Source: Robiginitalea aestuariiviva | GTDB lineage: Bacteria > Bacteroidota > Bacteroidia > Flavobacteriales > Flavobacteriaceae | Assembly: GCF_029537735.1 (NCBI RefSeq) | Contig: NZ_JARPUQ010000002.1 | Span: 984,240-1,048,239 of the forward strand | Length of the DNA: 64,000 bases | Direction: 5' to 3' | Translations under genes and position numbers: made by a program | Shown here: positions 769-16,530 of the stretch, in pieces | Layout: every line of letters begins with the position of its first letter | How positions within the stretch are numbered: the first letter of the stretch is position 1 | The notes under the pieces: generated by a model | The model's input: only the letters and a program-made list of their open reading frames with translations | What the model was told of the DNA's origin: nothing | The model's database searches: none

Positions 769-1416
769 ATGAATTTACACTGGGCAACCCTGTTGCTGAT
801 CGCCTCCAATGTGCTGGTGAGCATCAAAGGGTTTAACGACCTCGGTTTTTTTGAACGCTATAAGTTTAATGTGAGCGCCATTCGCGCCGGGCAGAAAGAC
901 CGAACCCTCACCTCCGGGTTCCTGCATGTGGATGTGGCCCACCTCTTCCTGAACATGTTCACCCTCTATTTCTTTGCAGATGTGGTGATTGCCTGGTTCG
1001 GCCCCTCCCGGTTTCTGATCCTTTATGCAGCAAGTTTGCTGGCTGGAAGTGTGTTGGCCCTGTATTTCCACCGCAATGAACCGTATTACAGTGCCGTGGG
1101 TGCCAGCGGGGCCGTTACCGGGGTGCTGTATGCGGCCATCCTGTTGCAGCCGGATATGCGCCTGGCCCTGATGTTTATCCCAATCCCTTTTCCGGCCTAT
1201 GTTTTCGGGATTGCCTATCTGCTCTATTCCATTTACGGGATGAAAAGCCGCGTGGGCAACATCGGGCACTCTGCCCACTTTGGCGGTGCCATAGGCGGTT
1301 TTGCCGTCACCCTACTTTTTAAGCCGGACCTGGTGACTGACCATCCGCTTATGGTATTCTTGCTCGCCATTCCCATTTTGCTATTGTTTGTGTTGCAAAA
1401 GATGGGTCGGATTTGA
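769..1416 (+). CDS. Rhomboid family intramembrane serine protease
   Basis: A 215-residue, strongly hydrophobic protein with about six membrane segments. The catalytic dyad is visible: GASG at 111-114 with Ser113, and the C-terminal AHFGG with His170, preceded by GH at 166-167. A loop between the first helices carries HVDVAHLFLNM, the usual rhomboid L1-TM2 region. The family cleaves single-pass membrane proteins within the bilayer; the substrate cannot be predicted from here. Length is normal for the short bacterial rhomboids that lack an extra helix. The divergent lipid A acyltransferase gene shares the promoter region. Confidence 0.93.
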   Translation: MNLHWATLLLIASNVLVSIKGFNDLGFFERYKFNVSAIRAGQKDRTLTSGFLHVDVAHLFLNMFTLYFFADVVIAWFGPSRFLILYAASLLAGSVLALYFHRNEPYYSAVGASGAVTGVLYAAILLQPDMRLALMFIPIPFPAYVFGIAYLLYSIYGMKSRVGNIGHSAHFGGAIGGFAVTLLFKPDLVTDHPLMVFLLAIPILLLFVLQKMGRI

Positions 1417-1480
1417 GCTCCTGATGGCTTATACGAATCCATGGTTATGGGCGTTAGTGTATTAGCAACACCCTAAGCCC

Positions 1481-3112
1481 ATGAACTTCCGACAGGTATT
1501 ACCCGCCCTGCTGTTCTGCCTTTCACTGACTGGTTGCAGCGACCAAACCACCATTTTTGACGAACCCCTTAGGGACCAACTGGTACCCGAAACCCGTGCT
1601 GCTGTGCTGGCAGGGGCGGTTCGTTTTGATACGGCCGGCGTCCTCGAAATCTATGAAGACCCTTCCAATACGGGGAAAGCTGCAGACGTAGCCGGAGATT
1701 TTCCGCTGAACCTGATTGCTTCCGTTGCTCCGCCATCCTATGCCGCCGGAGATCAGTTAACTGCTTCACATGTGGACCTGGACGGCGACTATGCCTATGT
1801 TGGCTATAATACCGTGGGGGAGGAGTTCTATGGCGCCATAGACGTGGTGGACATTTCGGACCCGCATAACCCCAGGGTGAGCGGCCGGATGTTCTACCTG
1901 GAAGCGGACATTAATGCCCTGAAATACGACCAGGGCTACCTGTATATAGTCGGGGGCGTAAATGCGGAAACCTCCGTGGAAGCCACCTCGAATTCCTTTG
2001 TAGCTCAAATCCCGGTACAGGATGGGCAATTGGTAACAGCGGGTATCCGCTACGGCTTTCAGCAGGGCAATAATGCCACGGATGTCCTGACCCTGGACGA
2101 TCGCATCCTGGTCAGCAGCGGGAAGGAAGGCAGTGTAACGGCCTATTCTAAAGCGGATATGAGTATCATGGGGGAGGTATACGTTGCCGATGCCCGGGCC
2201 CTGGCGCGTACCGAAACCGGTTTTGCCGTGCTTGATGCCGGAACCGGGGTACGGCTCATGCAAACAGATTTTACCGAAACGGGCCTTGTTCCCATTGCCA
2301 CAGACCTGGGGCTGGCTACCAAAAGAACCCTGGATTTCCGGGACGGCCGTATCCTTGTGGCAGAAGCCCAGAAGGGTGCAGGGGTTTATGACGCAGCCTC
2401 CGGCAACCTGCTCGAATATCTGGATATCCCCATCCACCCGGACGGGGCCGATACGGCAGATATTGTCACCAACGCCGTAGTGGCCAACGCCGATGCCTTG
2501 TTTATGGCTAATGGGGGTGCAGGGTTTTCCCTCACCCAATGGGGTGGGGCCGCCTCCCGCCTGGTGGGGATTATTGAATTGGAGGGCTCAGTGAATTACG
2601 CGGCCTCCCGTGATGATTATGTCTTTGCCGCTACGGGCCAGGGCGGGCTGCAGGTGATCCGTTTGTTACGCCCTGTGGAATCCCTTGCAGGAAGCTGCGA
2701 GGCCCTTCCCCTGTATGAAGGCAGTTCCAACCTGGTGGTTAACCCCGGGGAAAACCTCGCTTACCGCGGGTCCAAACGCTTCCAGAGTATGGATATCGCT
2801 GGTTCCGCCCTACTATGCGGGGCCTGGACGGTATTTAACCATGTCGATATTCAGGCGGGCGGCACCTTTGAATGGTATGGCAGCCTGGCTGTTGGGCGGT
2901 TTTTCCGCAGGCGGAACATCACTGTGGGCGAAGGAGCCGTCTTGCGGATTGAAGGGGACCTGACCCTGTATGGGGACCTGATCCTGAACGATGGGGCCAC
3001 CCTGGAAATATTGGGCGGGCAGGATTCTGTCCTGGACATTTTCGGGCAGGTGATTACCAACGGGGAGGTTACCATCAACGGAACCTTCAGGGATGTGCGC
3101 CGAAGATTCTAA
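1481..3112 (+). CDS. Lipoprotein with LVIVD-like beta-propeller repeats
   Basis: A 543-residue secreted lipoprotein: signal peptide with lipobox LTGC (Cys19). From about residue 90 there are repeats with aromatic and acidic turns such as AYVGYN and IDVVDISDPHNP, the pattern of LVIVD repeats that form a surface beta-propeller. The last ~130 residues change to short strand repeats (GEGAVLRIEGDLTLYGDLIL, then ILND.ATLEI), resembling a right-handed beta-helix or polymer-like tail. No catalytic residues are recognisable. Its role may be surface binding. The gene is followed by a bidirectional terminator shared with the convergent TlpA-like gene. Confidence 0.7.
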   Translation: MNFRQVLPALLFCLSLTGCSDQTTIFDEPLRDQLVPETRAAVLAGAVRFDTAGVLEIYEDPSNTGKAADVAGDFPLNLIASVAPPSYAAGDQLTASHVDLDGDYAYVGYNTVGEEFYGAIDVVDISDPHNPRVSGRMFYLEADINALKYDQGYLYIVGGVNAETSVEATSNSFVAQIPVQDGQLVTAGIRYGFQQGNNATDVLTLDDRILVSSGKEGSVTAYSKADMSIMGEVYVADARALARTETGFAVLDAGTGVRLMQTDFTETGLVPIATDLGLATKRTLDFRDGRILVAEAQKGAGVYDAASGNLLEYLDIPIHPDGADTADIVTNAVVANADALFMANGGAGFSLTQWGGAASRLVGIIELEGSVNYAASRDDYVFAATGQGGLQVIRLLRPVESLAGSCEALPLYEGSSNLVVNPGENLAYRGSKRFQSMDIAGSALLCGAWTVFNHVDIQAGGTFEWYGSLAVGRFFRRRNITVGEGAVLRIEGDLTLYGDLILNDGATLEILGGQDSVLDIFGQVITNGEVTINGTFRDVRRRF

Positions 3113-3133
3113 TCCCCAGGAACACAAATAAAT

Positions 3134-3163
3134 AACCCCCGAATTCAACAGAATCCGGGGGTT
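3134..3163. terminator. Bidirectional intrinsic terminator
   Basis: A 13-bp stem (AACCCCCGAATTC with GAATCCGGGGGTT, one mismatch) and a 4-nt loop AACA lie between two convergent genes ending at 3112 and 3184. Uridine tracts are weak on both sides. Confidence 0.6.
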
Positions 3164-3183
3164 TACTTTCTGTAGGGGGTATA

Positions 3184-4296
3184 TCACGGCAACAGTTCCG
3201 CGATCTTTTCCTCCAGGGCTGCACCCCTCAGGTTTTTGGCTACAATGACCCCGTTTTCGTCCAGCACAAAACTCGCCGGGATGGCCTGTACATTGTATTG
3301 CAGCGCAATTTCATCATTGAAATACTCCAGGTGGGAGACCTGCGGCCAATCCAGCCCGTCTTCAGCAATAGCCTGCCGCCAGAGGTCGCCGTCGCGGTCC
3401 AGGGAGACCCCAATTACCTGAAAGCCCTTGTCTTTGAATTTATGGTAAACCCGCACCACATTGGGGTTTTCGGCCCGACAGGGTTTGCACCACCCGGCCC
3501 AGAAATCCACCAGGGTCACTTTCCCGAGATTTTCGCTCAGCGTCAGGGTACCCCCATCGGGGGTTGGCCCGCTAAAATCCGGGGCCTGGGAACCTACTGC
3601 CGTTTGCCCCATGGCGTTGAGGCGCTCGCGCAGGGTGCTGGCGTGGTGGCTGTTCAGAATGGACGGATCCAGGCCTTTGTACAGGCTTTCCAGGTCACCG
3701 ATGGGCAGGCTTTCCCCTTCCAGCAGCCGGTTGATGACCAGCACGGAGATCAGAGCGTCGGGATGGGTTTCCACAAAGGTTTTTTCGTAACCAGCCATCT
3801 GGTCCTGCAATTCAAAATATTCGTCCCGTAGGGCGCCAATCACCGCGCTGTCCTGCTGCATCATGGCCTGCCGCAATTCCTGGTTCATGGATTGGCGACG
3901 GGCCGAGAGTTCCCTGGCTCCTTCCAGATAGTCGGCATAGGCTTCGTTTTGGGGGGTACCGCTAACGCGGGCCAGTTGCAGGCTGTCCTTGTGGCCCTGC
4001 ACCTGGACGGTTCCCGGCTCCAGTACCATAGGCACGGCGCCACGGGAGCCTTCCACGAAGATATAGTAGAGTTCCGGCTGGGCGATTTCGCCTTCAAAAC
4101 CAAAGGTGCCGCCCTGCACTGTGGTGGTGTCCACATCGACGGTTTGCAGGTTTTCATCGCTTTTTCGCAAGAAAACCTGTTTCCCGTCTGCCGCGTTTCC
4201 TTCGAGTTGTCCTTCAATCCGGAAGCCCGCCTGGCCTCCCGGGTTGCAGGAAGCGATCAGCATCAAGGCAAAAAGCAGCATAAATGGGTGTTTCAT
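3184..4296 (-). CDS. TlpA-like thioredoxin-fold lipoprotein with N-terminal DUF4369 domain
   Basis: A 370-residue lipoprotein (lipobox IASC, Cys17). Residues ~24-110 match the style of DUF4369, a beta-rich domain placed before thioredoxin domains in Bacteroidota. A helical region follows (120-230), then an AhpC/TSA-TlpA thioredoxin domain with the redox pair Cys270-Cys273 in WAGWCKPC and the cis-proline context QAIPASFVLD. It likely acts as a thiol-disulfide reductase in the periplasm, for instance for cytochrome c maturation or oxidative repair; the partner is unknown. Single gene with its own terminator region downstream. Confidence 0.88.
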   Translation of the reverse strand: MKHPFMLLFALMLIASCNPGGQAGFRIEGQLEGNAADGKQVFLRKSDENLQTVDVDTTTVQGGTFGFEGEIAQPELYYIFVEGSRGAVPMVLEPGTVQVQGHKDSLQLARVSGTPQNEAYADYLEGARELSARRQSMNQELRQAMMQQDSAVIGALRDEYFELQDQMAGYEKTFVETHPDALISVLVINRLLEGESLPIGDLESLYKGLDPSILNSHHASTLRERLNAMGQTAVGSQAPDFSGPTPDGGTLTLSENLGKVTLVDFWAGWCKPCRAENPNVVRVYHKFKDKGFQVIGVSLDRDGDLWRQAIAEDGLDWPQVSHLEYFNDEIALQYNVQAIPASFVLDENGVIVAKNLRGAALEEKIAELLP

Positions 4297-4352
4297 CTGG
4301 GGTCAAATTTGGTGAATGTCAAAGGTAGGGAAGTCCTGAAGAGAAGAAAAGA

Positions 4353-4384
4353 AAAAGCCCTTAACATATGTGTTAAAGGCTTTT
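4353..4384 (-). terminator. Intrinsic terminator of the small barrel gene
   Basis: A 14-bp stem with one mismatch (AAAAGCCCTTAACA / TGTTAAAGGCTTTT) and loop TATG lies just past the stop of the gene ending at 4406. On the minus strand the stem runs into a T/C-rich tract. Confidence 0.6.
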
Positions 4385-4405
4385 AATTTTCTGTTTCTAC
4401 CGAAC

Positions 4406-4900
4406 TCAGAATTGGTATCGGATCCCCAGGGCAATGTCGAAGTCCAGGTTATCGTTAAAACCGTCATAGCCCACCAGCCCGATCTCCGGCCGGAAGTCCA
4501 GGGAGAGCAACAACGGGATATCGAAATTGTATTCAATCCCCAGGTCTCCGGCCCCGAAAATAAAGAGGCCGCCATCATCGGTGGTCACGAAATCCGGGTC
4601 AAAGTCCACGCTGCCCAGGCCGCCGCCCACGCCAAAGTACCAATTGAAATTCCCGTCAAGCGGGCGTACCCATTGGTAGATGCCGGCCAGCTTAAAGGCG
4701 TCGAAATTCCGGGAATCCCGCCAGCCGAGGTCAAATTCCACCCGGTTGTAGCGGGCTACCGATTTTTGGTAGGAAATCTCAGCCCCGAACCCGTCGCTAT
4801 CGCCCAGGCGAAGCCCCAGGGCGTGGTTAGAGATGTCCTGGGCAAACACGCCAGCGGAGGCAAAGAATGCGAATACCGTAATAATGCGAATCAGTTTCAT
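4406..4900 (-). CDS. Small outer-membrane beta-barrel protein
   Basis: A 164-residue exported protein with a clean signal peptide ending in GVFAQ and alternating strands of the 8-stranded barrel type (GLRLGDSDGFGAEISYQ, WYFGVGGGLGSVDF, LGIRYQF). The last residue is Phe in a YQF terminus, a usual C-terminal signature of barrels. I chose the ATG at 4900 because it gives a standard signal peptide; an ATG at 4909 adds three residues. A TAnnTTTG box (minus strand, 4923-4930) lies just upstream. Function unknown. Confidence 0.8.
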   Translation of the reverse strand: MKLIRIITVFAFFASAGVFAQDISNHALGLRLGDSDGFGAEISYQKSVARYNRVEFDLGWRDSRNFDAFKLAGIYQWVRPLDGNFNWYFGVGGGLGSVDFDPDFVTTDDGGLFIFGAGDLGIEYNFDIPLLLSLDFRPEIGLVGYDGFNDNLDFDIALGIRYQF

Positions 4901-8921: not shown

Positions 8922-9986
8922 ATGGCAGGAAACACCTTTGGCACCGTATTCCGGTTAATGACTTTCGGGGAGTCCCACGGACCCGGCCTGGGCGGGATTA
9001 TTGACGGCTGCCCTGCGGGGGTGGCCCTTGACCTGGATTTGGTACAGCGCGAACTGGACCGGCGCAGGCCGGGGCAATCTGCTATTGTAACCCAGCGCAA
9101 GGAACCGGACCAGGTAGAATTCTTTTCGGGCCTCTTTGAGGGGAAGACTACGGGAACGCCCATCGGCTTCCTCATCCGGAACACCAACCAGAAATCCAAG
9201 GATTACACCCATATTGCAGAGACCTACCGCCCTTCACACGCAGACTGGGTCTACGATCAGAAATACGGGTTCCGGGATTATCGGGGAGGCGGTCGCAGTT
9301 CTGCCCGGGAAACCGTGTGCCGTGTGGTGGCTGGCGCTATTGCCCGCCAGCTCCTTCCGGAGGTGCAGATTCAGGCCTATGTGTCCCAGGTAGGGGAGAT
9401 GGCATTGGAAAAACCCTATACCGAATTGGATCTTACCCAGGTGGAAGCCAATGCGGTGCGTTGCCCGGATCTTGAAATGGCCCGGGAGATGGAAGCTTAC
9501 ATTAAGGCGGTGCGCAAAGACGGGGATACCATTGGCGGGGTGGTGAGTTGTGTGATCCGGAATGTACCGGTGGGCCTAGGCGAACCCGTCTTCGACAAAC
9601 TCCATGCCCGCTTGGGGCAGGCCATGCTCTCCATCAATGCGGTGAAGGGCTTCGAGTACGGCAGCGGCTTTGAAGGGGTTCGCATGCGGGGTAGTGTGCA
9701 TAACGACGCCTACAATCCGGACGGAACAACGACTACCAACCACAGCGGGGGCATACAGGGTGGGATCAGCAACGGGATGGATATCTACTTCCGGGTGGCT
9801 TTTAAGCCTGTGGCCACCCTGATACAGGCCTATGAGACCATAGACAGGGAAGGCAACCCGGCCACCGTGCAGGGGAAAGGCCGGCACGACCCTTGTGTGG
9901 TACCCCGGGCCGTTCCCATTGTGGAAGCCATGGCAGCGCTGGTGCTGGCAGACATGCACCTGCTGGCCCGCCTGTCCAAAATATAA
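8922..9986 (+). CDS. aroC: Chorismate synthase
   Basis: A 354-residue protein covering the whole family length. It opens with the signature [20 protein letters not shown], and contains [11 protein letters not shown] near 124-134 and the C-terminal [19 protein letters not shown]. It converts 5-enolpyruvylshikimate-3-phosphate to chorismate using reduced FMN, the last common step of aromatic amino acid synthesis in the cytoplasm. It is followed after 63 bp by the symporter operon on the same strand and has its own promoter upstream. Confidence 0.98.
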
Positions 9987-10049: not shown

Positions 10050-11378
10050 ATGAGGAAAATCGAACTGCACTGGCAGATCCTGATCGGGATGTTGCTGGGG
10101 ATTGTCTTTGGTTTCATAATGACCTACCCGGATTGGGGTGCCGGTTTTATACAGGACTGGATCAACCCCTTCGGGACCATCTTTGTGAAATTGCTGAAAC
10201 TCATTGCCATCCCCTTGATCCTGGCCTCCCTAATCAAAGGGATTTCCGACCTCAAGGATATCAGTAAATTCCGGAATATTGGCCTTCGGACCATTGGCAC
10301 TTATGTGGTGACCACCGTGGTGGCCATTAGCCTGGGATTGCTTTTGGTTAATCTGTTACAACCCGGGGAGGGGATTTCCGAAGAAACCATAATCCGGCTT
10401 ACGGATACCTTCGCCTCCGATGCGGGGGTAACCTCCAAGCTGGAGGAGGCCAGCCGGCAGCGGGACAGCGGCCCCCTGCAATTTTTGGTAGACATGGTGC
10501 CGGACAACGCCTTCCGGGCAGTTAGCGATAACGGCCTGATGTTGCAGGTAATTGTCTTTACCATGCTCTTCGGGATCAGCCTGCTGTTGATCGGGGAGGA
10601 AGCCGCCAAACCCCTGAAAAGCTTTTTCGATTCCCTGAACGATGTGGTCCTGAAAATGGTGGACCTCATCATGCTGACAGCGCCCTATGCCGTATTTGCC
10701 CTGCTGGCCAATGTGGTGGTCACCTCCGGTGACCCGGACCTGCTTTTGGCCCTGCTTAAATATTCCGGGGTTGTGGTTCTGGGGCTCCTACTGATGATTG
10801 TGTTTTACGGCCTGGTGGTTTCCTTTTTGGTCGGGTATAACCCCTTCAAATTCCTAAAGGAGATGAGCCCGGCCCAATTGCTGGCGTTTTCCACCAGTTC
10901 CAGCGCGGCCACCCTGCCGGTAACCATGGAGCGCGTGGAGGAACATATTGGCGTAGACAAGGAAGTTTCAAGTTTTGTGCTGCCGGTTGGGGCTACCATC
11001 AACATGGACGGCACCAGCCTTTATCAGGGAGTGGCGGCCGTATTTATTGCACAAGCACTGGGCTTTGACCTGACCTTTGCGGGCCAACTCACTATTATCC
11101 TGACCGCCTTGCTGGCGTCCATTGGCTCTGCCGCTGTGCCCGGTGCGGGGATGGTCATGTTGGTGATTGTGCTGGAATCCATCGGCTTTCCGGCCGATAA
11201 GCTGGCCATTGGCCTGGCCCTGATCTTTGCGGTAGACCGTCCCCTGGATATGTGCCGGACGGTGGTCAATGTAACGGGGGATGCCACGGTTTCCATGCTA
11301 GTGGCCAAATCTGTTGGCAAACTCGGAAAACCCCATGTAAAGAATTGGGACGACCACCTTGACGAAATCAAAAAATGA
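10050..11378 (+). CDS. Dicarboxylate/amino acid:cation symporter (DAACS family, GltP/GltT-like)
   Basis: A 442-residue membrane protein with the DAACS hallmarks: the serine-rich reentrant loop FSTSSSAATLPVT, the GATINMDGTSLYQG motif of TM7, a second reentrant loop GSAAVPGAGMVML, and DRPLDMCRTVVNVTGDA in TM8. In characterised relatives the Arg-Asp pattern of TM8 binds the side-chain carboxylate of aspartate or glutamate. It imports acidic amino acids or dicarboxylates with sodium or protons. Its stop overlaps the start of the ATP-grasp gene by 4 bp (ATGA), so it is probably translated with the next three genes, hinting that glutamate or aspartate is a substrate of that pathway. Confidence 0.93.
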   Translation: MRKIELHWQILIGMLLGIVFGFIMTYPDWGAGFIQDWINPFGTIFVKLLKLIAIPLILASLIKGISDLKDISKFRNIGLRTIGTYVVTTVVAISLGLLLVNLLQPGEGISEETIIRLTDTFASDAGVTSKLEEASRQRDSGPLQFLVDMVPDNAFRAVSDNGLMLQVIVFTMLFGISLLLIGEEAAKPLKSFFDSLNDVVLKMVDLIMLTAPYAVFALLANVVVTSGDPDLLLALLKYSGVVVLGLLLMIVFYGLVVSFLVGYNPFKFLKEMSPAQLLAFSTSSSAATLPVTMERVEEHIGVDKEVSSFVLPVGATINMDGTSLYQGVAAVFIAQALGFDLTFAGQLTIILTALLASIGSAAVPGAGMVMLVIVLESIGFPADKLAIGLALIFAVDRPLDMCRTVVNVTGDATVSMLVAKSVGKLGKPHVKNWDDHLDEIKK

Positions 11379-12415
11379 GGCCTATGAATATTTGTTTCCT
11401 GATGTACCCCTGGGAGGAGATTGATCCGGAAAACGACACCAGCCTGGCGCTCCTTCACGAGTGTGTACGCCGGGGCCACGGCGTAGCCCTGTGCACCCCG
11501 GCCAACCTGACCATCCGCAATAGTGTGACCAATGCCTTCTGTACGGTCATCAACCGTATGGATAAGGTGCCTGTGAGCCTGAAGGCTTTTTATAAAAAGG
11601 CTGTCACGCGGGAAGAGATGCTTCCCCTGGCCGGGTTTGACGTGATTTTTATGCGGGCCAACCCGCCCCTGGACCCCCTGATGCTCAACTTCCTGGATTC
11701 CGTTAAAGACGACGTCTTTATCGTTAATTCCCTGCAGGGGCTGCGGGAAGCGAATAATAAATTGTATACCGCTGCTTTTGGCGACAGCCACAGCAATATT
11801 ATCCCGGCCACCCATGTTTCCAAGAACAAGAATTACCTGATCCGGCAGATCCGGGAGTCCAAATCCGATAAAATGATCCTGAAGCCCCTGAACGGCTATG
11901 GCGGCTCTGGGGTGATTCTGATCGAGAAGTCGGCCATGAGCAATATCAATTCCCTCCTGGATTTCTACATCAGCAATTCGGACGGCACCTCAAATTACGT
12001 TATCCTGCAGGAGTACATCGAGGGGGCTGACCAGGGCGATATCCGCATCCTGTTGCTGAACGGGGAACCCATTGGCGCCATGCGGCGGATCCCGGGCTCG
12101 GAGGACCACCGGTCTAATGTTTCGGCTGGGGGGTCCGTGGCCAAACACGTGCTTACGAAAGAGGAAAAGGCCCTGTGCAAACAAATTGGGCCCAAACTGG
12201 TGAACGACGGGCTGTACTTTGTAGGAATTGATGTGATTGGGGGGAAACTGGTGGAAGTAAATGTGATGTCGCCAGGCGGCATCACATACATGAACAAGAC
12301 GTACAAGACCAAGATCCAGCAAAAGGTGATCGATTTTGTCGAAAGCAAGGTGCTGGATAAGTTGCAAGCCTTCGATCGCCGGTCCCGCCTGCGCAAAGAG
12401 GTGGAGGATGCATAG
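11375..12415 (+). CDS. ATP-grasp amino acid/peptide ligase, glutathione synthetase (GshB)-like
   Basis: A 346-residue ATP-grasp protein. Visible motifs: MRANPPLDP in the N-terminal domain, the ATP loop LKPLNGYGGSGV, and the metal/nucleotide site ending GIDVIGGKLVEVNVMSPGG (Asp, Glu, Asn). GshB joins gamma-glutamylcysteine to glycine, but no GshA-like partner is near. Downstream genes are an N-formylglutamate amidohydrolase and a HExxxH peptidase, so a different acid plus amine may be joined. The start at 11375 overlaps the symporter stop (ATGA); a second ATG at 11384 is possible. Confidence 0.85.
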   Translation: MRPMNICFLMYPWEEIDPENDTSLALLHECVRRGHGVALCTPANLTIRNSVTNAFCTVINRMDKVPVSLKAFYKKAVTREEMLPLAGFDVIFMRANPPLDPLMLNFLDSVKDDVFIVNSLQGLREANNKLYTAAFGDSHSNIIPATHVSKNKNYLIRQIRESKSDKMILKPLNGYGGSGVILIEKSAMSNINSLLDFYISNSDGTSNYVILQEYIEGADQGDIRILLLNGEPIGAMRRIPGSEDHRSNVSAGGSVAKHVLTKEEKALCKQIGPKLVNDGLYFVGIDVIGGKLVEVNVMSPGGITYMNKTYKTKIQQKVIDFVESKVLDKLQAFDRRSRLRKEVEDA

Positions 12416-13232
12416 GCTCACCCCGGCCGAGATGATCTCCCTGATCCGGGCACAAAAACCCTTTGAGGCGGTATCCGATGATTATGCCTTTCGCCTGAAA
12501 GTTGAAGCGTATATACCCCTGGTATGCGGTGCCGTGCATGAAGGACACCAGTTCCGGCCTTCCCTATGGGAGCGGTGCACCCATACCGCATACGAACGCT
12601 GGTACGAGGAAGACCCCTGTACCCTTAGCATGGTTTCGGGCCATCCCATTGTCATCAGCGGGTGCGACAGCCGTTTTGAATATGACCTGAACCGCCCCCC
12701 GGATACCGCCGTTTACGAAGATGCCTGGGGAAAGCCCTTATGGAAGCAACGGTTGCCCCAAAAGGAAAAGGACCGCAGTCTGGAGAAGCACCACCGGTTT
12801 TACGAGGTGGTCCATGCCCTGGTCGAAACCCTGGAGGCCCTGCACGGGGCTGTGCTGGTGGTAGACATGCACAGCTACAACTGGAAACGATGGGACCGGC
12901 CGGTTCCCACCTGGAACTTGGGCACCCACAATATAGACAACCAGCGCTTTGGCGGGGTTATGGAGGCCTGGCGTTCCCGCCTGGCCGATATTCGCCTGCC
13001 CCACGATATCCCGCCCACAGCCCTGATTAATGATACCTTTTACGGAAACGGGTATTTCCTGAAATACATTACCGGGCATTTTGACCATACCCTGGTGATG
13101 GCCACGGAAATTGCCAAGGTGTATTGCGATGAAAGCAGCGGGGTGATCTATCCCGAAGTAGTGGCCTCCGTACGCCGGCAATTGAAAGAATTGATACCTT
13201 TGCAGCTTCTGGAATTCCAGCAAGCCTTATGA
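12408..13232 (+). CDS. N-formylglutamate amidohydrolase family protein
   Basis: A 274-residue hydrolase of the N-formylglutamate amidohydrolase fold. The metal-binding stretch VVDMHSYNWK (Asp-x-His) and NLGTHNID are visible, with FRPSLWE near the N-terminus. Known members release formate from N-formyl-L-glutamate at the end of histidine breakdown; no hut genes are present here. It is embedded between an ATP-grasp ligase and a DUF1704 peptidase, overlapping the first by 8 bp and the second by 4 bp. The internal ATG at 12408 is preferred to an upstream in-frame start that would overlap the ligase by 80 bp. A role in trimming an acylated glutamyl compound is inference. Confidence 0.85.
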   Translation: MHRLTPAEMISLIRAQKPFEAVSDDYAFRLKVEAYIPLVCGAVHEGHQFRPSLWERCTHTAYERWYEEDPCTLSMVSGHPIVISGCDSRFEYDLNRPPDTAVYEDAWGKPLWKQRLPQKEKDRSLEKHHRFYEVVHALVETLEALHGAVLVVDMHSYNWKRWDRPVPTWNLGTHNIDNQRFGGVMEAWRSRLADIRLPHDIPPTALINDTFYGNGYFLKYITGHFDHTLVMATEIAKVYCDESSGVIYPEVVASVRRQLKELIPLQLLEFQQAL

Positions 13233-14401
13233 CGGAGCCCCTTTTGCACCCCGACCTGCAGCGGCAGTACGCCCGCGTTTTAGAAATCGATGCCCACCTG
13301 GACCGGCTGGTCCGCCGCATTGAATTGCTGCAGTACATCAACCCGCTGAACACGGAAAAAGAGAAGCACCGGTTCTTTGCTTCCAAATACACGGAAGAGC
13401 CCCAGTTCAAATACCCCAAACTCAAGTTTGACCCCTACAAGTTGCACCGGCTCTTTTTTGCCCATCGCCTGGATCGTATCGAGGACGAAACCCTGCGGGA
13501 GCTCTACAAGGAGGTGATTTACTTTTACGCCAATATGGTACAGTGCATTGAGACCATCGGCAGCACCAAGCGCTTTTATTATAATTCGCTACGGGTTTAT
13601 GGGACACCCCGGGAAAAGGATGTGGAAAATGCCCGCTTTATCCTGCATTTTGCGGACGAGCCCCAGACTGCACAGATGGAGAAGCGGCATACCCCGGAGG
13701 CGGCCAGGGATTACTTCGAAGCCTTTGCTAAGGACTATGATTTCCCCCTGCAAATCCGGTTTTCCACGCATATTTCTGCAGAGGCCATGGTGAGCAACAG
13801 CAGCCGCACCCTGCATATTAAACGCAACGCCCGTTTCTCGGACAACCAATTGCTGACCCTGGCCCACCACGAAATCGGGGTGCATCTGGTGACCACCTAC
13901 AACGGCCAGGCCCAGCCGCTGAAGATTTTCTCCAATGGCCTGCCCAAGAATGTGGAGACCCAGGAAGGGCTGGCGGTGTTTAGCGAATACATGGGGGGAG
14001 CACTCACCTTAAAAAGACTTAAGGAATTGTCTTATAGGGTATTGGCATCAGATAGCTTAAGTAAAGGTTATAGTTTTGCGGACACCTTCGACCTCATCCA
14101 TAACCAGTACAAACTCAACCGGGATGCCGCCTTTACCATCACCCTGCGCGCCCATCGCGGCGGCGGTTTTACCAAGGACCGATTGTACCTGAGCGGCCTG
14201 CGCAAGATTTACCAGCGGTATCTGAAAGAGGAACCCATGGACCCGTTGCTCACCGGGAAAGTTTCCCTGGATTACGAGCGCCAGATCGCTTATATGCAAC
14301 GCCTGGGGCTGGCCGTAGAAGGCCCGCACCGCTGCCTTTCCTTCCGGGAAAAGCGCAATACCAACCCAACCCTGGATTTTATCCTGAACAACCTCAAGTA
14401 G
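13229..14401 (+). CDS. DUF1704 / QEGLA-motif metallopeptidase (flavohemoglobin expression-modulating family, MATCAP-like)
   Basis: A 390-residue protein of the family annotated as flavohemoglobin expression-modulating QEGLA motif protein. Zinc ligands stand out: HEIGVH at 214-219 (HExxxH) and QEGLA at 245-249, whose Glu246 is the probable third ligand. The same HExxxH-plus-Glu arrangement is known in eukaryotic tubulin tyrosine carboxypeptidases (MATCAP/TMCP), which remove a C-terminal tyrosine; that the bacterial protein is a carboxypeptidase is inference. Last gene of the symporter-ligase-amidohydrolase operon, with ATGA overlap to the gene before. Codons for residues ~260-285 are unusually AT-rich. 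Confidence 0.88.
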   Translation: MTEPLLHPDLQRQYARVLEIDAHLDRLVRRIELLQYINPLNTEKEKHRFFASKYTEEPQFKYPKLKFDPYKLHRLFFAHRLDRIEDETLRELYKEVIYFYANMVQCIETIGSTKRFYYNSLRVYGTPREKDVENARFILHFADEPQTAQMEKRHTPEAARDYFEAFAKDYDFPLQIRFSTHISAEAMVSNSSRTLHIKRNARFSDNQLLTLAHHEIGVHLVTTYNGQAQPLKIFSNGLPKNVETQEGLAVFSEYMGGALTLKRLKELSYRVLASDSLSKGYSFADTFDLIHNQYKLNRDAAFTITLRAHRGGGFTKDRLYLSGLRKIYQRYLKEEPMDPLLTGKVSLDYERQIAYMQRLGLAVEGPHRCLSFREKRNTNPTLDFILNNLK

Positions 14402-14404
14402 CCT

Positions 14405-16420
14405 TCATAGGGTAATGCTGCGACCCCTGGGGTAGCGCACCTGAAAACCGAACTGCCGTACGTCCTGCTGCCGGGGCGCCAATTCCAGGACCCACTCCAG
14501 GATTCCTTTTTCCTTGTCATAGGCTGCATTGCCCGTTTCCTGGTCCGTTACCCGGATTTCCTTGTTCTGGGATATGGGGATCCGATCCAGCAAGCGGACC
14601 CGTACAGGCTGCGTCCCGTTGTTTTTCAGTTCCAGGGTATAGGTGCGGTCCAGTACCCGGGTGCTCCCGCTCAGGTTCTTGCTCTTGAACAGGCGCTCCT
14701 GTTTGCGCCGTACCTGCAACTGGGGGTCTGCCCCAAGGGAAACCTTGAGCTTACGGGATGCCGTATGGGGGTCCAGCAGGGTGTTGCCCACGAATGTGCC
14801 TTCAAAATACACCCGGGCTTCTCCGGGTAACAAATCCCGGTTTTCCCACCCGGAGATTTCGGCGGTCAGGTATACCTGCTCATCCAGGACCGGGGCAGCC
14901 TGGTACTCGTAATCGGCGTCCAGGGAAAAGCGGTCTATGGGCACAGCTGTGAATTCAGGTCCCGAAGGCACCGTGCGCCGGCCGGCAATGGCGAAGCTGG
15001 TGGTGCGGGCCTCTGCCCCGGCCTCCGGTTCCCGGGTGGTGATCAGGATAACCCCGTCCGCTGCCCGGTTGCCGTAAAGGGCTGTGGCTGATGCCCCGTC
15101 CATAGTCGTGATTTCTTCAATCTCACTGGCATCCAGGTCTCCATCCGTATATCCGCTAACGGGCACGCCGTCTATGATATACAGGGGTTCGGGCTCGCGT
15201 GGGGCGCTGGCAGCCCCGCGGATACTTACCCCGGCAGCGCTGGTTCCCATAGCCGTGACAACCACCTCTTCCAAAGTATGGGCATCTTCTTCCAGCCGGG
15301 TATTTATAACCGAAGCGTAAATGGGAAGGGTCTGGCTTTCCATCCCAAGGTAGGAGATGGTCAGTTCCCGGGCGGTGCCCACCTCCAGGCTGTAATACCC
15401 GTCAAAATCTGTTTGCGTACCCCGGGAGGTACCCGGGATTACTACATTCACCCCAGGCAAAGGCAGCCCGCTGGCATCCACGATGTGCCCGCTCACCTTT
15501 CGCACCATAGGATTATATACAAAGCGGCTTTTTCGGGAATCTGGTTTCGGTTGGCGCGCATAGCCGAAATCCAGGAAATGCGGGCGCAGCTCGGGCCGGG
15601 CTATCCCGCGCCGGGGACGTGCCGTGGAGAGGGTAAGGGGTACGTCGGTCCAGTCTACCCCCGTTTGCTGATAGACATGCCCGCGATACGTCATTGCCAG
15701 TGGGGCTCCCATCCTGGCTGAACGCAATTCATAAGAAGGTACCCATCCGGCGTCGGACACCAGGTAGGAAACCACCAGCCTGGCCTCCCGGGCCTGGGGC
15801 GCCAGCAGGGTAAGCAGGATTTCCCCTGTGGGTTCCCTGTTTTTGCCACCGGCCTGTGCGATTTGCAGGGTGAGTTCCTTTTGGTCTTCCCGCAAATGGG
15901 CCAGTTCTTGTTTGAAGGCCTGGATGCGGTCGCCAATCTGGGTGATGCGCTCCCGGTAATAGGTCCCCATAGCCTGGATTTCGGAAAGGGTGGCTTTACC
16001 ATCCGGGCCACCAATATTCCGGTTGTCTTCCAGCACCTTTTCTTCGGCTTGCAGGCCTGCTATCTTGTTTTCTACCTGCCCCATCCGGGTTTCCAGATCC
16101 TTCAGGCGCCGCCCTAATGCCTGCTTAAACGTACGGGTGGCTGCGGGTTGGATGTAGTTGACCTGGTAAGAGGTGGCCTCCAGGCTCAGGCCCAGCAGGC
16201 CTTTCACCTGTATGCTGTTCTCGTCGATCCGGTGCGATAGCCCGGTCAGCAGTAGTTTGGTGGTTCCTGCTGGGAGGGTAACGGTGGCTTCGCGCTCTAT
16301 TTCGGCCCCATTCACAAAAAGGGTGACCCCCGATATCCGTGAGGGGAGTTCCAGGGTGTCGCGGGATTGTGCAAAAGTCCAGAAGGGGAGTAGCAGCAAA
16401 AGGGAAAATAGGGTTTTCAT
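14405..16420 (-). CDS. MuiA-family protein (DUF4140/DUF4139) with an inserted carboxypeptidase-like domain and SusC-type TonB plug
   Basis: A 671-residue exported protein. Signal peptide ends WTFAQ. Residues ~25-95 fit DUF4140, ~98-195 a coiled coil, and ~200-280 plus ~470-671 the two halves of DUF4139 (AGWVPSYELRS, then VLDEQVYLTAEISGWENRDL). Between them, ~308-380 is a carboxypeptidase-like regulatory domain (VSGHIVDASGLPLPGVNVV, DFDGYYSLEV) and ~383-462 a plug with LEEVVVTAMG, PLYIIDGVPV and the SusC signature ALYGNRAADGVILITT. No TonB receptor barrel follows. MuiA proteins are linked to envelope phenotypes; the insert suggests docking to a SusC/D-like or TonB system. The ATG at 16420 gives the signal peptide; an upstream in-frame start is unlikely. 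Confidence 0.85.
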   Translation of the reverse strand: MKTLFSLLLLLPFWTFAQSRDTLELPSRISGVTLFVNGAEIEREATVTLPAGTTKLLLTGLSHRIDENSIQVKGLLGLSLEATSYQVNYIQPAATRTFKQALGRRLKDLETRMGQVENKIAGLQAEEKVLEDNRNIGGPDGKATLSEIQAMGTYYRERITQIGDRIQAFKQELAHLREDQKELTLQIAQAGGKNREPTGEILLTLLAPQAREARLVVSYLVSDAGWVPSYELRSARMGAPLAMTYRGHVYQQTGVDWTDVPLTLSTARPRRGIARPELRPHFLDFGYARQPKPDSRKSRFVYNPMVRKVSGHIVDASGLPLPGVNVVIPGTSRGTQTDFDGYYSLEVGTARELTISYLGMESQTLPIYASVINTRLEEDAHTLEEVVVTAMGTSAAGVSIRGAASAPREPEPLYIIDGVPVSGYTDGDLDASEIEEITTMDGASATALYGNRAADGVILITTREPEAGAEARTTSFAIAGRRTVPSGPEFTAVPIDRFSLDADYEYQAAPVLDEQVYLTAEISGWENRDLLPGEARVYFEGTFVGNTLLDPHTASRKLKVSLGADPQLQVRRKQERLFKSKNLSGSTRVLDRTYTLELKNNGTQPVRVRLLDRIPISQNKEIRVTDQETGNAAYDKEKGILEWVLELAPRQQDVRQFGFQVRYPRGRSITL

Positions 16421-16530
16421 AAGGCAAAGGGTATGGATTATACGCCTAAACCTAGCGCTATAAGGATGTACGGGCAACCCCGAATGATTCCAGGGGCGAA
16501 ATGGCCTAGGGAAGCCCTCATGCGGGCGAG

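Follow-up and report, generated by a model that had tools for sequence, protein, structure and literature searches.

What would an enzyme resembling glutathione synthetase be doing in an operon with an amidohydrolase and a relative of the peptidases that trim tubulin? The question is raised by positions 10050-14401 of a 64,000-nucleotide stretch of Robiginitalea aestuariiviva DNA (from contig NZ_JARPUQ010000002.1; the whole stretch is hereafter the window), where four plus-strand genes follow one another: a GltP-like acidic amino-acid symporter (10050-11378; SDF, 425.9 bits), a GshB-like ATP-grasp ligase predicted to be amide-forming (11375-12415; PRK12458/NF009110, 470 bits against a cut-off of 408), a carboxypeptidase-fold N-acyl-amino-acid amidohydrolase of the N-formylglutamate amidohydrolase family (FGase; 12408-13232; PF05013, 54.8 bits against 28.9), and a zinc carboxypeptidase of the MATCAP/QEGLA family (13229-14401; PF08014, 362.5 bits against 27). 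A first-pass annotation had assigned the genes to these families and given their overlaps as 4, 8 and 4 bp; the profile scores agree with the family calls, and the coordinates and overlaps are exact. We find that the ligase, FGase and MATCAP very probably act together as a conserved three-enzyme module, and we think it somewhat likelier than even that this module both forms and breaks an amide bond, its substrate being a small acidic (glutamyl- or aspartyl-containing) peptide or N-acyl amino acid. The module is a conserved three-gene set of known families for which we found no name. The open-access literature searched gave no description of it, although an earlier one may exist, and term searches within PMC13269789, PMC4431377 and PMC2922099 returned nothing on it.

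Linkage was followed in 133 profile-scanned loci, comprising 80 named loci (the best 80 of 169 found with the window's MATCAP), 35 further Bacteroidota and 18 plasmid records, and in two genome sets with few members in common: 60 relatives, among them the window's own genome (G000), and 395 genomes of the phylum. The idea that the three enzymes might be neighbours in other Bacteroidota proved right, and the arrangement reaches distantly related bacteria beyond them: the trio is found in Flavobacteriaceae, other Bacteroidota, Photobacterium, rhizobia, and one Roseateles record. Symporter, ligase, FGase and MATCAP stand in that order in 69 of the 80 named loci, and two loci are cut off at contig ends. 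Among the 70 loci with matches to all four genes, the 8-bp overlap of ligase and FGase, as estimated from tblastn ends, recurs in 68. By the same measure, the symporter overlaps the ligase in only one. The coupling of symporter and ligase, part of the joint translation proposed earlier, is therefore local.

Co-occurrence of MATCAP and the full-length module ligase is nearly perfect. PF08014 is present in 23 of the 60 relatives and 19 of the 395 phylum genomes. Among the relatives, strong PRK12458 matches (at least 336 bits) accompany it in all but one of the 23 genomes, and the 37 without MATCAP have none; 18 pass the curated cut-off, and the 22 include G024, counted with 201 bits and a ligase at a contig end. 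Within the phylum set, a full-length module ligase (at least 396 bits) occurs in 18 of the 19 genomes with MATCAP, 17 of them above the cut-off, and in 0 of 376 others. The genomes with MATCAP and no strong ligase are G009, with a symporter-MATCAP arrangement, and G242, with a solo MATCAP. Two MATCAP-free genomes, G134 and G250, have PRK12458 matches of 194 and 215 bits that are presumably canonical GshB, and many genomes give weaker matches that resemble RimK-type ligases. PF05013 is found in 23 of the 60 relatives; of the 23 that have MATCAP, 19 carry a module FGase. Pairwise distances of the partners correlate as well (r 0.88-0.93, from 41 of the 106 loci eligible), and for each pair none of 2000 permutations reached the observed value.

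The ligase matches GSH-S_N and GSH-S_ATP, carries the PRK12458 name "glutathione synthetase", and has 1gsa as its PDB match (E 3.6e-41). One explanation of the locus is accordingly an ordinary glutathione synthase, with FGase and MATCAP recycling glutathione or gamma-glutamyl peptides. The PRK05246 glutathione synthase model agrees with this, at 289.4 bits over a cut-off of 272, as do 30 strongly conserved positions common to module ligases and canonical GshB, including R210, R225, R233, E281 and N283 (E. coli numbering), which we take to be the catalytic residues of GshB. However, the score on TIGR01380 (243.5) is below the cut-off of 299.05, and position T288 of the SPT loop is G in 59/59 module ligases but T in 5/5 canonical ones. 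In a ligase tree of 64 rows (type I thinned, only five canonical sequences, long branches flagged, root not fixed), type I module ligases (31 rows), type II module ligases (28) and canonical GshB (5) lie on separate branches with 100% support. The first-pass annotation had remarked that no gamma-glutamylcysteine synthetase is nearby, and this extends to the whole genome for two families: PF04262 is absent from all 60 relatives, the window's genome included, and PF04107, present in 10 of the 60, is absent from the window's genome. A PF08886 search gave no match in the window's genome, nor did any control give one. Shinella sp. PSBB067 has FGase, QEGLA and ligase together on one record, and a ligase on another of its records groups with canonical GshB. 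Thus the module enzyme shares with GshB its ATP-grasp family and catalytic residues and differs in its own tree groups, the T288 to G change, a genome devoid of PF04262 and PF04107, and its tie to FGase and MATCAP. The tree, the loop residue, the missing synthetases and Shinella holding both enzymes led us to reject the glutathione explanation, which we now regard as very unlikely; the doubt already cast on it in the first-pass annotation was justified by tree, gene context and genome content alike. The ligase also falls short of the RimK family (93.3 bits against a cut-off of 143.4).

The FGase model (pLDDT 84) has the N-formylglutamate amidohydrolase 2q7s as its best fold match and also matches 2odf (E 8e-9 to 6e-6); the next matches are weak (E about 0.002-0.003 and up) and are carboxypeptidase-fold proteins. 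Residues H44, E67, D93, N95, R96, D153 and E234 are kept in 111/111 FGases, and H155 in 110/111. A HutG-type deformylase was considered and rejected, the TIGR02017 equivalog giving 19.1 bits against a cut-off of 278.75. Alignments for the FGase and MATCAP models held 28 sequences each, 60-87% identical to those of the window.

For MATCAP, the related TIGR02421 scores 309.7, below its cut-off of 338.65. The zinc motif H214-E-I-G-V-H219, completed by E246 of QEGLA, aligns with human MATCAP, in keeping with the earlier claim that it equals that of tubulin detyrosinases. H214 and E215 are present in 134/134 MATCAPs, H219 and E246 in 133/134, and a further block, R307, K316, D317 and Y320, in 134/134; the block is also visible in the human alignment. 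The model (pLDDT 81) finds human MATCAP (7z5g/7z6s) as its best Foldseek match (E 1e-7 to 4e-7), followed more weakly by carboxypeptidases of Thermus and Pyrococcus (E 0.001-0.005). By alignment and fold, the bacterial peptidase and the eukaryotic MATCAP carboxypeptidases are truly homologous, as had been supposed. The eukaryotic enzymes remove glutamates as well, TMCP2 preferring Glu and Ala (PMC10499314). The module MATCAP is like human MATCAP/TMCP (KIAA0895L) in fold, in HExxxH plus distal Glu, and in the R307/K316/D317/Y320 block; it is unlike it in its operon partners, a ligase and an N-acyl amidohydrolase, and in sometimes being fused to an active-looking or degenerate FGase.

These fusions tie FGase to MATCAP directly. 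The 134 MATCAPs (133 loci plus the window) comprise 96 of short form (whether or not the trio surrounds them), 28 of type II, 6 placed behind FGase in a fusion, and 4 solo. FGase and MATCAP form a single frame in 6/133 loci (L126, L127, L136, L152, L162 and L169), and on two Photobacterium plasmids the ligase adjoins the fusion. Type II MATCAPs have an extra N-terminal domain of about 230 residues, the ligase behind MATCAP, and an FGase in front in 20/28. Against the FGase profile the extra domain gives an hhalign probability of 96.7 (E 3.2e-10, 191 columns), compared with 0.1 and 0.5 for the MATCAP and ligase control profiles. The motifs RxExDxNR and DxH(S/C)YN, present in 108/110 and 107/110 FGases, are found in 0/28 type II domains, and a loose HxG(H/G) match is left in 1/28. 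The domain is a degenerate FGase. The order FGase, degenerate FGase fused to MATCAP, ligase holds in each of the 12 plasmid loci scanned from rhizobia and Roseateles (one species contributes two), and by annotation in a thirteenth. Parts of the module are exchangeable: in L137 and L138, FGase and a type II MATCAP stand, in that order, between a type I ligase in front and a type II ligase behind, and in L161 the FGase is of type I but its partners are of type II.

Beyond mixing, one part can be replaced. Seven of the eight FGase-free type II loci (L145, L146, L148, L156, L158, L163 and L164) have beside the ligase an AstE_AspA gene, of the aspartoacylase/succinylglutamate-desuccinylase family (65-73 bits against a cut-off of 25). 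Six of these genes are co-directional and one is convergent; the eighth locus, L154, has neither FGase nor such a gene. A hidden Markov model of the seven genes matches nothing in any other of the 133 loci, and six of the seven loci form one supported clade in the ligase tree. Two of these genes were scanned against the NCBI models of true desuccinylase and aspartoacylase, and both stayed well under the cut-offs. In the list of genes directly adjoining the loci L125-L177, only the AstE/AspA gene, standing in for FGase, recurs beside the trio across groups. Characterised FGase and AstE/AspA members, both of small-molecule amidohydrolase families, cut N-acyl bonds to acidic amino acids, and for this reason the exchange is the strongest hint to the chemistry: it narrows the substrate to something an acidic-amino-acid deacylase could handle. 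The families, catalytic residues, linkage, fusions and replacement are read directly in sequences and models; we infer the reactions, their directions, an acidic small-molecule substrate and an osmotic or general-stress role. The ligase would activate a carboxylate with ATP and attach an amino acid, MATCAP would take the C-terminal amino acid off again, and FGase, or the AstE/AspA-family enzyme in some relatives, would cut an N-acyl bond to an acidic amino acid. The first-pass annotation had likened ligase and peptidase to TTL and the tubulin detyrosinases. The reaction type carries over; with a ligase that is GshB-like by sequence, the parallel is one of reaction logic only.

A protein could in principle take the place of the small molecule, with the ligase adding an amino acid to a C-terminal or side-chain carboxylate and MATCAP trimming it, as in RimK/RimB or TTL/TTLL-MATCAP. 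Eukaryotic MATCAP homologues do act on protein tails (PMC10499314), and there is a bacterial precedent in RimK/RimB, a ligase/peptidase pair acting on the tail of ribosomal protein S6 (PMC12239564). RimK/RimB and the rlo operon resemble the module in pairing an ATP-grasp ligase with a peptidase. Unlike the module, RimK/RimB has a retropepsin-like peptidase, to which the zinc MATCAP is unrelated, and rlo has the transglutaminase-like RloB, which the trio is without. No retropepsin-like family is among the profile matches of the window proteins scanned, and the module ligase is of GshB type (470 bits, against 93 for RimK). FGase and its AstE/AspA replacement come from small-molecule families, and no substrate-protein gene recurs among the neighbours of L125-L177. 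Both the recurring FGase and its exchange point to a small acidic metabolite over a protein tail, and we consider the latter unlikely. We think it quite improbable that the acidic C-terminal tail of a protein or signalling peptide is the target of a bacterial writer-eraser cycle, with a GshB-type ligase writing and MATCAP erasing; were it true, the eukaryotic tubulin-trimming MATCAPs would derive from an older cycle in which tubulin ligases replaced the writer. The bacterial relatives of the tubulin-trimming enzyme gain a definite set of partners, which makes it possible to test with three proteins what reaction they originally catalysed.

COG3930 is, we assume, the MATCAP/QEGLA family. A gene table for Vibrio vulnificus (PMC3091676) places a COG3930 gene beside "glutathione synthetase" (VV2_1203/1204). 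For Photobacterium damselae in 1% versus 3% NaCl, PMC10308900 reports A0J47_RS17020 (annotated GshB) up 38 fold and RS17025 (annotated QEGLA) up 27.5 fold, two genes whose adjacency is inferred from locus tags alone and whose module identity is judged by the annotated neighbour. The joint rise with rimK, up 52 fold in the same comparison, would also fit a protein-tail cycle, and the rlo operon has been tied to growth at low salt (PMC12239564). A role of the module at low salt is a lead, not a result. The authors treat the 38-fold gene as a glutathione synthetase; our data suggest that genes so annotated beside QEGLA often encode something other than a glutathione synthase, a point that matters for transcriptomes such as this one (PMC10308900).

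Several observations weigh against a small-molecule amide cycle, or against MATCAP always serving it. The symporter and MATCAP stand alone, with neither ligase nor FGase beside MATCAP, in 9/80 named loci; four solo MATCAPs have neither partner, and the L127 fusion is without an adjacent ligase, all of which indicates some independent use of MATCAP. One MATCAP of 134, behind the symporter in L157 (5881-7032), is devoid of HExxxH. The distance correlations stem partly from shared ancestry, the low HutG score does not fix the acyl group of the FGase substrate, and we know of no substrate or activity for any bacterial member. The nine symporter-MATCAP loci, together with the symporter upstream, would fit a purely catabolic pathway in which acidic peptides, once imported, are broken down by MATCAP and FGase, with the ligase unrelated or a side branch. 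Yet the ligase tracks MATCAP (22/23 and 18/19) more closely than FGase does (19/23), and the symporter occurs in genomes without MATCAP; we think catabolism alone rather improbable. The genome with L157, G016, additionally carries a type II module.

The symporter itself is a conserved neighbour, probably outside the module. SDF apart, its best NCBIfam match is the GltP equivalog, at 264.7 against a cut-off of 638, and the motif D..LD..RT..N, presumably for acidic amino-acid binding, is shared by all 78 symporters detected across the 80 loci. The importer had been counted into the system, and this we had to reject: a close orthologue (62-87%) occurs in 9 of 11 MATCAP-free genomes searched, and the ligase overlap is confined to the one locus in 70 noted above. 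Of the other two genomes, G036 has a copy that is more divergent (about 51-59%) and carries an insertion, and G040 has distant ones only. In the window, the chorismate synthase gene aroC (8922-9986) lies upstream of the symporter. Eight of the nine orthologues show aroC or a DCC gene within 1.5-kb flanks (aroC in seven, a DCC gene only in G011, neither in G033), and in G004 (a Robiginitalea relative), G010, G011, G020 and G030 no module separates the symporter from a DCC gene less than 300 bp away. Behind the symporter, L196 (G014) retains a decayed short ligase fragment and L195 (G019) a lone FGase with an altered HxGH site. Symporters without the module, together with these remnants, indicate that the trio is often gained and lost as one unit, at times leaving MATCAP or fragments.

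A few features of individual loci may be added. A GGAAC-N16-19-GTT site, presumably a general-stress sigma motif, lies near FGase in 5/12 rhizobial loci (no shuffled control; a lead only), and GGAAC-N16/17-CGTT sites lie near the rhizobial FGase start in L125, L130, L173 and L174. Between FGase and MATCAP of L173, on a Sinorhizobium medicae plasmid, are two annotated group II intron reverse-transcriptase genes (1393-4551). In the Vibrionaceae loci L126, L127 and L169, genes for a DUF413 (MaoP-like) protein and a LysR regulator are found directly upstream of the module. An operon of a RimK-like ATP-grasp enzyme, GCS2 and FGase (L197, 3955-7355, in G016; a matching one in L198, 4066-7419, in G023) resembles the module in placing FGase beside an amide-forming ligase and differs in its GCS2-type enzyme, its different ligase and the lack of MATCAP. 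ATP-grasp operons were reportedly treated by Iyer et al. (2009). Downstream of the trio in the window, on the minus strand, 14405-16477 encodes a protein with DUF4140 and DUF4139, with CarboxypepD_reg and TonB Plug within the DUF4139 stretch; relatives of it next to the module share about 40-50% identity.

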